The notes under the pieces are model-generated. The model saw only the letters and a list, made by a program, of their open reading frames with translations. It was not told the DNA's origin and searched no databases. The translations under genes were made by a program, and so were the position numbers. 6,790 nt of DNA from Parabacteroides sp. (GTDB lineage: Bacteria > Bacteroidota > Bacteroidia > Bacteroidales > Tannerellaceae): assembly GCA_020026285.1 (NCBI GenBank), contig JAHHQS010000188.1, forward strand, positions 1-6,790, given 5' to 3'. Position 1 is the stretch's first letter; every line of letters starts with the position of its first letter. This document shows, piece after piece, positions 113 through 6,070 of the stretch.

Positions 113-2407
113 CTACTGTTTCATTATTTCATTTATGACCTCATCCATACTCTTATACATGCTTTTGATACCATTTTCATATATTGTCCACACACCACCA
201 CGTTGATATATCAATTTTCGCTTAACGTATATTGAACTATTATCTTCTTGAGACTTAACAGCATCAAAGTTAGGAGCCAAATTATATTGATTTCGCAGAC
301 ACTCATACAATACTCGAATTTTTAAATCTGTATGAAAATGATTACGCCTGCTCTGATAATAAATGAGCACATCATCAGTACATACATCAAAAGCTATAAA
401 ACCCTGTTTTGAAAGTTGCATTATATTGGTACCATACTCCCCGATAAGCAATTCAATCCATTCTGTTGTAGGTTTATGTTCATTCGTGATTTTCTGTAGA
501 GACGCTGCAAGATTTTGAAAATCATAATTTTTGTCAGAGACGATTTCCTTTAAACAATTAAGCGCCGTCACATTCGATTTTCCACCAATACGAAACAAAG
601 ACTTCCATGAATAATCACGATGAGCAGGTCTATTGTAGAAATTCTTTCTAAAACTAGATAACCAAGGCATATAGTCCCCTTTAGACAACATCGCTTTTAC
701 CATAATGAAATCTTTTATGATTACAGAATTAGACAAGCCTAACTGTTCGAATAAAGGTAAAGACTTTTCTAAAACATTTCTATAAACATCCGGACTTGGT
801 ATTTGATTAAAATCCATGGACGTCAAGTTACATGAATCTCCTTCCTGCATGACTAGACCAGCTAAATATAATGTAACTCCAATCTGCCCTCTTAAATACG
901 AATTAGATTCAGCTTTTTTAATCAAGGTACGCCATACAGAATCCCGTCGAAGTTGGGCTTTACTTACTTCCTCATTCCATTGATAAATATCAAAGAATTT
1001 CGGTAAAGTTCTTGATGATTTAGCAATCCACTCATTAATAGTCAGACTCCCCTGACCACTTCTTGCTTCCAAGTAATCATTCAGAAGCAGTTCTATATCC
1101 TTAAGAACCTTCATCATTTCTTCCGAACTATTTATTCTTGTAGCAGCCGAAAGATTAAAAATGACACGCATCCACTCAGTAAGTTCAGCATTTTCTGCAT
1201 CTTTCATGACTTGTTTAAAATGGAAATAAGCATGAAGTTTAAGACGGGTATCATACGTTATATTACCATCATCATTCATATTTTTCCCAAACAATATCCA
1301 TTTTCTAACCGCCAATTCTATATCAAAAAACTGAGAATCATAATCGTTAAGATTATTATCTCTAAGTACAGTTGTTTCTGGATCTAGCAGAATTTTTAAG
1401 TCAGCAATCACCCTTTCCAAAAAAATAGAATCAAAAACCACCCCTATTTCCTCATACCAGTTGTGAGAAAACGTAACTGTCTTATCATTAGCTTCAAACA
1501 AGCAATCCAAATTTTCAGAATTCCAACGATAAGCATTATTATTAAACAAAGCCTCGTTAGCAAAAATGATTTTTAAGATACGCTCCAGCAAAAGGTCCAC
1601 ATTAGGAGTTCCGTTTGTACGATATCCCCATAACTCATCAGACCATTTCACATCCAAATCTGCTTTAAATTCTTTTTCCATCGAAGGAAGATGCTTCTCC
1701 ACATCCTCTATCAATTTACTTTTAAATATTTCAAAAGGAGTTAAAGGTAATCCACGTGCATTCATTTTTATGTACAAGTCATCAATATCATGGAAACCTT
1801 CAAGCGGTAAAAATTCAAAAACGATAGGTTGTACTTCCCCTGAATAAAGATTTACATACGCTTCATGAGCTACATCATAGAACTGCATATTTATTTCATC
1901 AAGCATCGTCAGCATACCTTTTATTGTCGGATCTTTTATCCAGGCACCAAACCACCAACTTTCATTTTGTATAAGTGAACTAGGTGTTTGAGAATCTTTT
2001 AAGCTATCCCTAGTTAAAATATTTCTAGCATTCACTAACAATGATTCACAAAACCGTGAAGAACTATCCCTAGTTTCATATAAGAAATGAAAAGAGTCAC
2101 AACTTTCACCTTCCATACTTCCAAGATAAACATGAAGTAACCACAACGTTGTCAGTCTCTGTTGTCCATCAAGAGGTATAAACCGATTATTTTCAGCTTT
2201 TCCATAAATAAAATCAAGACTATGCGTTTTACCACTAAAGATATATGATTTTAGTTCAGAAACAAAGTCCTTCCTAATTTTAGAAGTTCTTGTATTTTCC
2301 CTACCTTGTGCATAATCACGTTGAATTGAAGGTATAATGATTTCATAATGTTCCTTTAGAAAAAGGTCTAAAAAAGAATATTCTTTTGCATCAATTATAG
2401 TAGTCAT
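113..2407 (-). CDS. DUF262-family protein, 764 aa, without a visible HNH nuclease; probable partner subunit of a two-gene defence system
   Basis: This is the second gene of the DUF262 pair. Its N-terminus carries the family signatures: IPSIQRDY at residues 25-32, with the QR pair at 29-30; LDFIYG at 64-69; and DGQQRLTT at 80-87. A later YIKMNARG...LT..E..KSKL block at 212-232 matches the conserved DUF262 core. In GmrS, BrxU and SspE this domain binds and hydrolyses NTP and controls a nuclease. Residues from about 235 to 764 match nothing I recognise. I see no EH-x-x-P plus N...N...K pattern of DUF1524 there, nor a clear PD-(D/E)xK motif. No signal peptide or membrane segment is visible, so it should be cytosolic. 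I chose the ATG at 2407 because it lies four bases after the upstream stop and gives a normal DUF262 N-terminus. The reading frame is open a further 25 codons upstream, but that overlaps the preceding gene and looks unrelated to the family. The stop is TAG, and the last 112 bases of the window beyond it hold no gene I can support. It could be a DNA or modification sensor, or a second NTPase subunit. Confidence 0.87.
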   Translation of the reverse strand: MTTIIDAKEYSFLDLFLKEHYEIIIPSIQRDYAQGRENTRTSKIRKDFVSELKSYIFSGKTHSLDFIYGKAENNRFIPLDGQQRLTTLWLLHVYLGSMEGESCDSFHFLYETRDSSSRFCESLLVNARNILTRDSLKDSQTPSSLIQNESWWFGAWIKDPTIKGMLTMLDEINMQFYDVAHEAYVNLYSGEVQPIVFEFLPLEGFHDIDDLYIKMNARGLPLTPFEIFKSKLIEDVEKHLPSMEKEFKADLDVKWSDELWGYRTNGTPNVDLLLERILKIIFANEALFNNNAYRWNSENLDCLFEANDKTVTFSHNWYEEIGVVFDSIFLERVIADLKILLDPETTVLRDNNLNDYDSQFFDIELAVRKWILFGKNMNDDGNITYDTRLKLHAYFHFKQVMKDAENAELTEWMRVIFNLSAATRINSSEEMMKVLKDIELLLNDYLEARSGQGSLTINEWIAKSSRTLPKFFDIYQWNEEVSKAQLRRDSVWRTLIKKAESNSYLRGQIGVTLYLAGLVMQEGDSCNLTSMDFNQIPSPDVYRNVLEKSLPLFEQLGLSNSVIIKDFIMVKAMLSKGDYMPWLSSFRKNFYNRPAHRDYSWKSLFRIGGKSNVTALNCLKEIVSDKNYDFQNLAASLQKITNEHKPTTEWIELLIGEYGTNIMQLSKQGFIAFDVCTDDVLIYYQSRRNHFHTDLKIRVLYECLRNQYNLAPNFDAVKSQEDNSSIYVKRKLIYQRGGVWTIYENGIKSMYKSMDEVINEIMKQ

Positions 2408-2411
2408 AATC

Positions 2412-4415
2412 TCAAAATGGTAATGTAAGGTTAGTATACGGAGTAAGAGTTTTGCAGATATCGTTCCAATATGCCATAGCATCAGTTTTCGACCAATAAA
2501 ACATATCTTTTATCCTTCTAGAGTAAGCTTTTTCAAAAACATTTCTAGTACCTACAGGCGTATAGACACTCAGTTCATCTTGTAAGATTCTTCGCCGTTT
2601 TACCGGATAAATATTGTTACCGTAACTTCTGTTCGTTGATGCATTAAGCAAAACAAAGTTCCATATAAAATCCTTTTCATCCATCTCTCTATTATTGACG
2701 AGAGCAAAGCCGAACCTGTTTTTAGAGCCAGCATTCACCTTGTCATTTTCTGTCTCTTTTTCGAAATAAGCTGTAATCATAGAATAAAAATTCTCAATTT
2801 GTCTTTCTGGCTCCCCTTGATTAGACACAGAAACCGATTTCTCGGCTAAAGATTTACCATACGTATTCAGAATCTGTAAAGCAGTATTACATATCTCTGT
2901 TTCTTTAGTATCCAAGTAACCCCAAAGTTCTGAAGTTATAGAATAGAAGTCACCTTCAACCACCGGCATTGCACCGGTAAAAAGTTCAATGACATCCATT
3001 GCCAGCTGTTCCACTTTATCAGAATCGGGAGAATAGTCAACATGAGAAGCAACATGCTCCTGATCCCAACCTTTATTTTTCTTTACATTCTTATATTCAG
3101 CAAAAGAAAAGCGTGCATTATCAGCTATTCTTTTATCTTCAAGCAGAATGTTGTAAAGGAACAAAATTTCAGAAAGTTCTTTTCGGCCGTAAAAAAGTTG
3201 AGAACTCTTGATTTTAGAAACCTTTGTTCTTATAATATCGTCAAGTATTTCCAGTCTTTCTGAATGTTTGCGTCCTTTTAGTTGGTCTATTAAAGTCAAG
3301 ACGTTTTCTTCTGGAACATATTCTAAAATAAATCCAATTCTGTGAAATATGTGCCTGTCATCATACCATTCGGTAAGAGTATCAAATAACTGTTTCACTT
3401 GAAGCCAGCTATCTTCAACCCAACAAATTCTATTTCTAACATCTTTCCCTTCAGACCTCATCATTTCTCTATATTCATCCAGATATTGATTAAAAGTAAA
3501 GAAGTGCTTATCCTCATGCCACTTTTTTTTCCCCTTCAACAGATCAAAGAGATATTCGATGTGACAATCATAACTAAAAGGATACTGCGAACTCACAATG
3601 AATCCCCAAAATTCTTTCTTTTGCAAACAGTTTTCTATGTCACCCCATTCCAATGCTAACGATTTAGCTTTCGCTATATCATTCTCGCTCCAGTTACTTT
3701 GCTGTAGAAATAAAGCCTTAATAAGCTCCGCATTGTTTAAACCAATTTTTCCAGCATTCAGTCTGTCAAAGACATCAGCATTAGAACCAGAAGTACTTGT
3801 CGGATAATACCATATAAACTTAGTTCCGTTATGTAAAACCTCCGTCAGTTGATTGATGCAGATTTCATCCATTTGTTTTAAGCGCCCATAAACAGCACAG
3901 AACACTTCTGCAAAGTGATAATAATCACAGTTCTTATTTTCAAACGTATTCCGTTTTTCTAAGTCATAGACTATTTCACTGATTTCTTTTAACCAAACAG
4001 AACTTTCAACCCTGGTTTCATATTTAATGCTGTATAAATTAGGCGCTATGCTAACAGGAAAAGCTGCTAGTTGACTAATGTCAATAACAGATTCAAATTT
4101 AAGCAAATGTAATGCTTGCAATATAAGAAGGATAGTTGTAAGACGCTGTTGACCGTCAATTATTTCAAGTTGTTGGTCTCCATTATCTTTTAATTTTACC
4201 ACCAGTGGTTGTAAGCAATAAAATTTAGATTTATCTAAAAAATAATGATATTCAGCAAATTCTACGAGGTCATCAATAAGTTGTATAGCCTGTTCTTTCC
4301 CCCAGCGATATCCTCTCTGATATGCCGGTACATAAAAATTAAACTTCCCCAATAGAAGTTCCGAGACTGAGATTAATTCCAAAGAGTTAAATAAATTCAT
4401 AATTGATTCTTTCAT
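2412..4415 (-). CDS. DUF262 + DUF1524-like (HNH) nuclease, GmrSD/BrxU-like, 667 aa
   Basis: This is probably an NTP-controlled DNA endonuclease of the type IV restriction / anti-phage kind. The DUF262 domain is at the N-terminus: VPAYQRGYRW at 29-38 (QR at 33-34), IIDGQQRLTT at 85-94, and the FDRLNAGK..L block at 216-226. A helical middle section follows. The C-terminus has the two halves of a DUF1524-like His-Me (HNH) nuclease: WDQEHVASH at 450-458, with H454 the likely catalytic base, and NFVLLNASTNRSYGN....K at 586-606, with N595 the likely catalytic Asn and K606 also typical. About 130 residues separate the halves, which seems longer than usual. The EH motif reads EHVASH rather than the usual EHI-x-P. 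In GmrSD-type enzymes these domains cut modified phage DNA, in SspE they act in phosphorothioate-linked defence; the target here cannot be read from sequence. The ATG at 4415 is used; the ATG at 4400 (codon 6), preceded by AAAGAA, is a fair alternative. It is the first gene of a two-gene operon with a stop-to-start gap of 4 bases. Confidence 0.9.
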   Translation of the reverse strand: MKESIMNLFNSLELISVSELLLGKFNFYVPAYQRGYRWGKEQAIQLIDDLVEFAEYHYFLDKSKFYCLQPLVVKLKDNGDQQLEIIDGQQRLTTILLILQALHLLKFESVIDISQLAAFPVSIAPNLYSIKYETRVESSVWLKEISEIVYDLEKRNTFENKNCDYYHFAEVFCAVYGRLKQMDEICINQLTEVLHNGTKFIWYYPTSTSGSNADVFDRLNAGKIGLNNAELIKALFLQQSNWSENDIAKAKSLALEWGDIENCLQKKEFWGFIVSSQYPFSYDCHIEYLFDLLKGKKKWHEDKHFFTFNQYLDEYREMMRSEGKDVRNRICWVEDSWLQVKQLFDTLTEWYDDRHIFHRIGFILEYVPEENVLTLIDQLKGRKHSERLEILDDIIRTKVSKIKSSQLFYGRKELSEILFLYNILLEDKRIADNARFSFAEYKNVKKNKGWDQEHVASHVDYSPDSDKVEQLAMDVIELFTGAMPVVEGDFYSITSELWGYLDTKETEICNTALQILNTYGKSLAEKSVSVSNQGEPERQIENFYSMITAYFEKETENDKVNAGSKNRFGFALVNNREMDEKDFIWNFVLLNASTNRSYGNNIYPVKRRRILQDELSVYTPVGTRNVFEKAYSRRIKDMFYWSKTDAMAYWNDICKTLTPYTNLTLPF

Positions 4416-4483
4416 TGTATAACGAATCGTAGTATCCTTAGCAAAATTGTAAATTTAATATAAAATTTATAAAATCTCGACAT
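4412..4483 (-). CDS. possible 23-codon leader ORF overlapping the DUF262 nuclease start
   Basis: An ATG at 4483 opens 23 codons (MSRFYKFYIKFTILL..., hydrophobic and basic). It ends in TGA at 4412, which overlaps the DUF262 ATG as ATGA. A purine-rich GAAAAGTGA precedes the ATG, and a stop codon in the same frame lies directly upstream. The ATG sits inside the 3' arm of the 40-base hairpin at 4473-4512, so folding of a leader RNA would hide it. The ATGA overlap is typical of translational coupling. Against it, the ORF is very short and lies in very AT-rich DNA, where such ORFs arise by chance. Confidence 0.22.
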   Translation of the reverse strand: MSRFYKFYIKFTILLRILRFVIQ

Positions 4484-4512
4484 TCACTTTTCACAAAGTC
4501 TTTGTCGAGATT
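4473..4512. repeat. 40-bp hairpin repeat, copy 1, in the leader of the DUF262 operon
   Basis: The arms AATCTCGACA (4473-4482) and TGTCGAGATT (4503-4512) are perfect 10-bp complements. Inside them ACTTT and AAAGT form a second 5-bp stem around a TCAC loop. The two stems are separated by a symmetric unpaired TTC/CTT internal loop. The copy at 6031-6070 has the same length and differs at two positions only. On the minus strand the hairpin is followed by TTATAAATTTT, a weak T-rich tract. It lies between the promoter match at 4539-4546 and the DUF262 start, so it would be part of the 5' untranslated RNA. Confidence 0.9.
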
Positions 4513-4979: not shown

Positions 4980-5633
4980 CTACTCAGAATACAATAAAAT
5001 TAAATCAAAATACATTAAACGAGTCCTTCTTTCCTCTATTTTAGATTTAGGACAGAAAAAATTCAACATTTTTTGAATCCAATTATCATTTTTCAAAGTA
5101 TTATTCATAAAATTCATCTCTTCTTCATCTGTAGCGAAAATAAAATCAAACCCATTATCCGTGTAATACTTTCTTACTTTAGGATGATTTATAGCATCTA
5201 CGATAACAAACCTACATCCTGTTTTATTCAAAGGTTCAATAAACCAAGCTTTTATAAAATCCATTAATTCATTACCGATATGTTTATTCTTAAACTTATC
5301 AAAAACAACAAGCTGGCCTACTAAAACCGCAGGATACTGAGAATGTCTTATCTCGTTAGGGATATGTTTATGAAGTTTTCGCTTTCTATTGTTACTCAAC
5401 CCTCTAACACGAATAGAAGAATTAGACACAGTAAAAGCGCAGACTATTTCATGCGGAGATTCATCTGTAAAGAAACAATAAGACTTACCTAACAGTTGTT
5501 TTGAATACTCGTTATAGTCTTTATGGAAAAAAGCATTGATATCTGTATCCTTTGAACAATTAAAAGGATTTGATTTACTGATAAGTTCAGGTGTTAATTC
5601 AGAAAATATGCAATGTTCTAAAAGGAAACTCAC
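4980..5633 (-). CDS. GNAT-family N-acetyltransferase, 217 aa, possible toxin of a toxin-antitoxin pair
   Basis: This should be a soluble acetyl-CoA-dependent acetyltransferase. The N-terminal FNCSKDTDINAFFHKDY (24-40) resembles the opening of TacT/AtaT-like GNATs, whose members acetylate the amino acid on charged tRNA. QYPAVLVGQLVVFDKFKNKHIGNELM (99-124) covers strand 4 and the acetyl-CoA loop. Its Q/R-x-x-G-x-G/A motif is degenerate here (KNKHIG, 115-120, with His in place of the first Gly). FVIVDAINHPKVRKYYTDNGF (142-162) is the closing GNAT motif, and Tyr157 sits where the general-acid Tyr is usually found. At 217 residues it is about 45 longer than typical TacT, mostly in the C-terminus. 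The start is GTG at 5633: no ATG lies upstream before an in-frame stop, and the next in-frame ATG would remove the N-terminal domain. It begins one base after the stop of the 53-residue gene, so the two are surely co-transcribed. A toxin role is inferred from this arrangement; a housekeeping or resistance acetyltransferase is the alternative. Confidence 0.85.
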   Translation of the reverse strand: MSFLLEHCIFSELTPELISKSNPFNCSKDTDINAFFHKDYNEYSKQLLGKSYCFFTDESPHEIVCAFTVSNSSIRVRGLSNNRKRKLHKHIPNEIRHSQYPAVLVGQLVVFDKFKNKHIGNELMDFIKAWFIEPLNKTGCRFVIVDAINHPKVRKYYTDNGFDFIFATDEEEMNFMNNTLKNDNWIQKMLNFFCPKSKIEERRTRLMYFDLILLYSE

Positions 5634-5634
5634 T

Positions 5635-5796
5635 TTAACTATTTCTATTTGATTTTTTTAAAATAGCCTGTGCTATTTTAACCTGTGTAGTAAAGTTTAC
5701 AGAAGCACGTTTCTTCTCATTATCGGCCGCAGTTTTACTAAATCGACTTGCAACTCGACCATGCAAAGTTGGGATTATTTTAATACTTATAGCCAT
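5635..5796 (-). CDS. small 53-aa protein upstream of the GNAT gene, candidate antitoxin
   Basis: I found this gene by reading the minus strand directly. It starts MAISIKIIPTLHGRVA, continues RFSKTAADNEKKRA, and ends with a predicted helix, VNFTTQVKIAQAILKKS. It is basic, with a short beta-prone N-terminus followed by helix, and has no membrane segment. Supporting it as real: a Bacteroidota promoter match 18 bases upstream, a palindrome by that promoter, and a stop codon one base before the GNAT start. GNAT toxins are usually encoded with a small antitoxin ahead of them that neutralises the enzyme and often represses the operon. It is shorter than DUF1778 ribbon-helix-helix antitoxins (about 90 aa), and I do not see that fold clearly. 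The antitoxin role is therefore inferred from position and size. A second ATG at 5801 is out of frame. Confidence 0.7.
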   Translation of the reverse strand: MAISIKIIPTLHGRVASRFSKTAADNEKKRASVNFTTQVKIAQAILKKSNRNS

Positions 5797-6025: not shown

Positions 6026-6070
6026 AAAAAAATCTCGACATACACTTTTCACAAAGTCATTGTCGAGATT
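6026..6070 (-). terminator. terminator-like hairpin (40-bp repeat, copy 2) for the upstream 158-aa gene
   Basis: The hairpin at 6031-6070 uses the same 10-bp outer arms and ACTTT/AAAGT inner stem as the copy at 4473. Its internal loop is TAC/CAT instead of TTC/CTT. On the minus strand the outer stem runs straight into seven T residues (6032-6026), the classical shape of an intrinsic terminator. It lies 142 bases beyond the stop codon of the 158-aa gene. The same sequence without the T-run occurs at 4473-4512, so termination may not be the only role. Confidence 0.6.
6031..6070. repeat. 40-bp hairpin repeat, copy 2
   Basis: It matches copy 1 at 38 of 40 positions in the same orientation, judged by the TCAC loop. 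The two copies lie 1,558 bp apart and bracket the small protein/GNAT module. The two differences are symmetric: the middle base of each side of the internal loop changes from T to A. Confidence 0.92.

Follow-up and report, generated by a model that had tools for sequence, protein, structure and literature searches.

A divergent GrwAB-type pair of DUF262 proteins from a Bacteroidales-like source, probably a two-subunit modification-dependent restriction system

Two-protein restriction systems in which both partners carry a DUF262 domain are exemplified by GrwAB, described in Vibrio cholerae in 2025. Its first gene encodes GrwA, which combines DUF262 with DUF1524, and its second encodes GrwB, in which DUF262 is followed by an uncharacterized extended C-terminus (PMC12137116). 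Defense requires both genes, neither of which protects alone, and is abolished by each of the substitutions R81A, H431A, N521A, and N530A in GrwA and R86A in GrwB; the targets are phages with 7-deazaguanine or sugar-modified hydroxymethylcytosine (PMC12137116). The authors reported 471 hits, in ~1% of genomes (PMC12137116), and close kin of the pair analyzed here may already be among them. TgvAB, encoded in a type I restriction-modification cluster in V. cholerae VPI-2, likewise comprises two DUF262 proteins, one with DUF1524, and requires both; homologues were noted in Bacteroides fragilis (PMC11411939) and may include pairs like the present one. Enrichment of DUF262 proteins beside GmrSD homologues was reported as early as 2015 (PMC4619093). 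By contrast, Eco94GmrSD and BrxU each work as one protein and have no DUF262 partner. SspE and DndI likewise act singly and belong to phosphorothioate systems; the tyrosine of their PxYQR motif (DndI Y25, SspE Y30) mediates the phosphorothioate response (PMC11662687).

The 6,790-nucleotide stretch of DNA analyzed here (hereafter the window) encodes two large proteins on its minus strand, A (2412..4415) first and B (113..2407) second, with a gap of 4 bases (2408-2411). Protein A (667 aa) consists of a DUF262/GmrSD_N domain (aa 18-237), a helical linker, and a C-terminal His-Me (DUF1524-like) nuclease; its database entry P0001 and the alignment with the V. cholerae protein P0292 (see below) suggest that translation likely starts at M6, giving 662 aa. 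Protein B has 764 aa, as in database entry P0121, and a longer frame of 789 aa from an earlier ATG is also possible according to the open reading frame listing. The window is probably a complete metagenome contig, as the database copy of B is found on two contigs, of which the longest has 6790 bases. Its DUF262/GmrSD_N domain (aa 14-232) is followed by an SspE/DndI-like helical linker and then by a C-terminal region that is variable, differs from that of SspE/DndI, and has no match to DUF1524. Both N-terminal domains matched Pfam GmrSD_N (PF03235) above the curated cut-off (A, E=9e-30; B, E=6e-20).

Conservation was assessed in alignments of 82 A proteins (80 loci, the window, and P0292) and 79 B proteins (78 loci and the window). 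The DGQQR motif of the NTPase (D87-R91 in A, 4143..4157, minus strand; D80-R84 in B, 2156..2170, minus strand) was present in 82/82 A proteins and 79/79 B proteins. The QR motif (Q33R34 in A, Q29R30 in B) was found in 81/82 A proteins, with one gap, and was intact in every B protein. Within DUF262, A also carries FxxxN (F216xxxN220), whereas B has YxxxN (Y212, N216; 78/79 B proteins, one gap). These results, together with the open reading frame coordinates, confirm the preliminary description of this DNA in its account of two DUF262 genes with QR and DGQQR motifs lying four bases apart.

That description had also placed a nuclease in A only, naming H454 and N595. The catalytic His of the His-Me finger, H454 (3054..3056, minus strand), aligned with GrwA H431, and the other two residues, N586 and N595 (2631..2660, minus strand), aligned with N521 and N530, so that N586 completes the set. 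Each of the three was kept in 82/82 aligned A proteins, with no sign of the loss of conservation that would have spoken against the assignment. DUF1524 (PF07510) had no match in the A of the window at E<=1 and matched 31 of the 52 sequences in an alignment of A proteins (A1, window included) weakly (best E 0.0017). Since Pfam misses DUF1524 in A, we base the nuclease assignment on residue alignment with the GrwA-like protein, conservation, and fold. No B protein matched PF07510, either among 48 sequences at E<=0.1 (alignment A2, of B proteins) or among 63 at E<=0.01, both sets including the window, and the B of the window had no Pfam domain besides GmrSD_N at E<=1.

For comparison with GrwAB, we searched with the A protein of locus L050, in which residue spacing is close to the published GrwA numbers. 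Of 120 matches listed with it, seven have R81, H431, N521, and N530 (one listed protein of <535 aa was skipped), and only P0292 among the seven is annotated as V. cholerae; we take P0292 to be the published GrwA on organism and these four residue numbers, not on accession. The L050 protein is 70% identical to P0292 and groups with it in the tree, whereas A of the window is only ~32% identical to P0292 over its length, and its His and first Asn stand farther apart (132 vs 90 residues). B of the window is 29% identical to B of L050 over aa 7-724, with the L050 partner standing in for V. cholerae GrwB; the DGQQR arginine of L050 B is R86, the place of R84 in the window. A quick, midpoint-rooted tree of 79 A proteins placed the window and P0292 in the same set of 32 rows (support 97), with the former on a long branch together with loci L001 and L002, from a Porphyromonadaceae and a Bacteroidales MAG. 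Different phyla are intermingled in the tree, suggesting horizontal transfer.

The locus thus shares with GrwAB two adjacent, co-oriented genes, of which the first encodes the nuclease-bearing and the second the nuclease-free DUF262 protein. A resembles GrwA in its QR, DGQQR, and FxxxN motifs and in three His-Me residues at matching places, and B resembles GrwB in its DGQQR arginine and extended C-terminus. Judged from these sequence features, the pair is very probably a GrwAB-type (GmrSD-like, type IV) modification-dependent restriction system of two subunits. It appears to be a new, distant, and divergent GrwAB member from a Bacteroidales-like source, of a kind that was itself described only recently; the two-gene arrangement, for which the preliminary description knew no established name, had already been named as GrwAB (nuclease gene first) and, in related form, as TgvAB. 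Because identity to the GrwA-like protein is so low, the target modification may differ from those of GrwAB, or the target may not be a modified base.

Comparison with solved structures gave significant matches to SspE and DndI (PDB 7drs, 7drr, 6jiv, 9jfl). The model of A aligned with SspE from 10 to 661, nearly its whole length, whereas that of B aligned with SspE/DndI only to about residue 470-500, covering the N-terminal domain and the linker. In a profile alignment of A1 with SspE and DndI, Y32 of the A motif PxYQR (P30-R34; 4314..4328, minus strand) fell on the phosphorothioate-sensing tyrosine (DndI Y25, SspE Y30), and a tyrosine occupied this position in 81/82 A proteins, with one gap. 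B lacks it, as it lacks the nuclease: in the signature PxIQRDYAQGR (P26-R36; 2300..2332, minus strand), Ile28 replaces the sensing tyrosine, and the position held Ile in 75/79 and Leu in 4/79 B proteins, followed by a near-invariant DYAQGR. The word tyrosine is absent from the main text of PMC12137116, and we found no account of this difference between the two proteins in the parts consulted of the GrwAB, DUF262, and type IV literature, which included PMC12409362 and few subscription papers. The first 250 residues of B were better conserved than the rest. The C-terminus varied in motif type and length, with open frames of 587-953 residues (counting residues before the start and excluding one cut frame).

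The significant matches to two phosphorothioate sensors, together with the large sequence distance of A from GrwA, could point to another role in DNA conflict, such as restriction of plasmid or unmodified DNA or the sensing of phosphorothioate, instead of restriction of modified phage DNA. We regard this as unlikely: the match of A with the GrwA residues points to GrwAB, and no other dnd/ssp-type protein was recognized among the five proteins scanned, although the window, at 6.8 kb, is short.

The two genes are inherited together. A genome scan that used A1 alone yielded 419 confirmed relatives, of which the best 80 were kept, a selection that favors closer relatives. In all 80 of these loci, B or its beginning follows A (77 long, two cut by a contig end, one broken). 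The B profile recovered a relative directly after A on the same strand in 78 of the 80, among them one (L036) with only 156 aa of B before the contig ends. Of the two loci that the profile missed, L028 holds the first ~43 residues of B and then reaches the contig end, and L035, from Devosia, keeps A together with a B that is broken after ~58 residues. At 4349-4522 of L035, our reading of the open reading frames shows the B stub followed by an apparent inverted hsdR-type fragment.

The same pattern was found in samples of genomes and plasmids. Among 395 Bacteroidota genomes searched at E<=1e-30, a threshold that misses remote relatives, A was detected in nine and B in the same nine, adjacent and in the same order; the sample includes its center (G003), picked for carrying the pair, and leaves 8/394 without it. 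A search for A in the order of G001 found it in 4/394 genomes, including the center, one copy with an in-frame stop. On plasmids, 16 records carried A and 17 carried B. In each of the 16 A records, B lies after A on the same strand, with ~1.5 kb between the matched pieces in NZ_CP136442; the 17th B record was a weak partial match. Distances among A proteins and among B proteins were correlated (Mantel r 0.83, 79 pairs; 0/2000 permutations as high, highest 0.17), which argues for co-inheritance but not for contact, since shared descent alone can yield such a correlation. The survey of gene neighborhoods suggested in the preliminary description, in which the pair might have proved rarely conserved together, thus shows the opposite, and A and B form a near-obligate pair of GmrSD-like genes, with two DUF262 domains and one nuclease between them. 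The two proteins plausibly form a complex.

So regular an association would also be expected if A were a single-chain GmrSD complete in itself, as Eco94GmrSD and BrxU are, and B restrained it from acting on host DNA as an antagonist or antitoxin-like regulator. A does have the architecture of such enzymes, with every part present, including the sensing tyrosine, and DndI is toxic to cells without its mark (PMC11662687). Yet L035 carries A beside a B that ends early, and in the published system the partner is needed, as neither gene protects alone and the GrwB NTPase variant abolishes defense (PMC12137116). We consider an antagonistic B improbable.

Returning to the GrwAB-type reading, we propose that A and B assemble as a hetero-complex in which both DUF262 domains would bind and hydrolyze NTP. 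A, with its SspE/DndI-type tyrosine and HNH nuclease, would nick or cut DNA. B would be a GmrSD-like scaffold with an NTPase of its own and, in the position of the nuclease, a variable C-terminal region, and would most likely license A; its C-terminus and altered patch may help to choose modified phage DNA, such that unmodified host DNA is spared. This division into a sensor patch plus cutter (A) and a licensing subunit (B) draws on the tyrosine pattern, the conservation gradient along B, and its variable C-terminus. The idea in the preliminary description that one NTPase senses and the other cuts oversimplifies matters, because the sensing tyrosine sits in the cutter A and is replaced in B; it is further disfavored by the need of published GrwAB for both DUF262 arginines and the GrwA nuclease residues (PMC12137116). 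More tentatively, and with rather low confidence, B could descend from an SspE/GmrSD-type nuclease and now serve as an obligate licensing subunit, having swapped its HNH domain for a C-terminal module that varies and lost from its DUF262 the sensing tyrosine kept by A. The pair would then form an asymmetric hetero-NTPase: A and B would each recognize a different feature of phage DNA, cutting would need both signals, and the types of B C-terminus would set target ranges.

The preliminary description took a neighboring module of a GNAT and a small protein as support for a defense island, a view that our searches did not sustain: the GNAT-like 217-aa, 53-aa, and 158-aa proteins of the window had no match in PADLOC, and any Pfam matches were below threshold. 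The GNAT-like gene directly follows that of the 53-aa protein (4980-5796, minus strand), an order perhaps of toxin-antitoxin style, with no family above the cut-off for either protein. These two genes are flanked by two copies of a 42-nt near-palindrome (4471-4512 and 6029-6070; 95% identical), which may represent terminators or a short repeat element. The copies were not listed in the terminator scan of the window, and a search of 295 genomes from the order of G003 for the near-palindrome pattern, allowing two mismatches, found none.

Elsewhere, the pair at L050 lies in an apparent type I restriction cluster (2823-15347) with HsdM, HsdS, a 420-aa gene, A, B, and HsdR, named from our reading of the open reading frames, a setting that resembles TgvAB in VPI-2. 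Blastp matches to the HsdM or HsdR of L050 occurred in the flanks (<=8 kb) of 15/80 loci, with both in 9/80, a raw count without a background rate. At L104, on the Chryseobacterium plasmid NZ_CP033935.1, the pair lies near genes for a GTPase, LeoA/HP0731-type dynamin-like proteins, an AAA ATPase, and a WYL-domain protein, which together may be a plasmid defense cluster. It is very improbable that the window pair belongs with TgvAB and not with GrwAB, although TgvAB has equivalent domain content, also depends on both proteins, and has homologues in Bacteroides fragilis. The nuclease-free tgvA apparently comes first (read from locus numbers and the ribosome-binding-site text of PMC11411939), whereas the nuclease gene leads in the window and in each of the best 80 of 419 loci. 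Outside DUF262, GrwB and TgvA are described as unlike each other (PMC12137116), a distinction drawn here from the published description, and the GrwA-like protein P0292 can be aligned with A along its length.

GrwAB has been characterized in V. cholerae, and the window pair adds a divergent, Bacteroidales-like member to this kind of system. The need of certain type IV enzymes for a second DUF262 protein is noted as an open question (PMC12137116; review), for which the loss of the tyrosine in 79/79 B proteins, an SspE-like scaffold without a nuclease, and C-termini of different types offer candidate reasons. If the pair does act as an asymmetric hetero-NTPase, the C-terminal types of B would define its target ranges.
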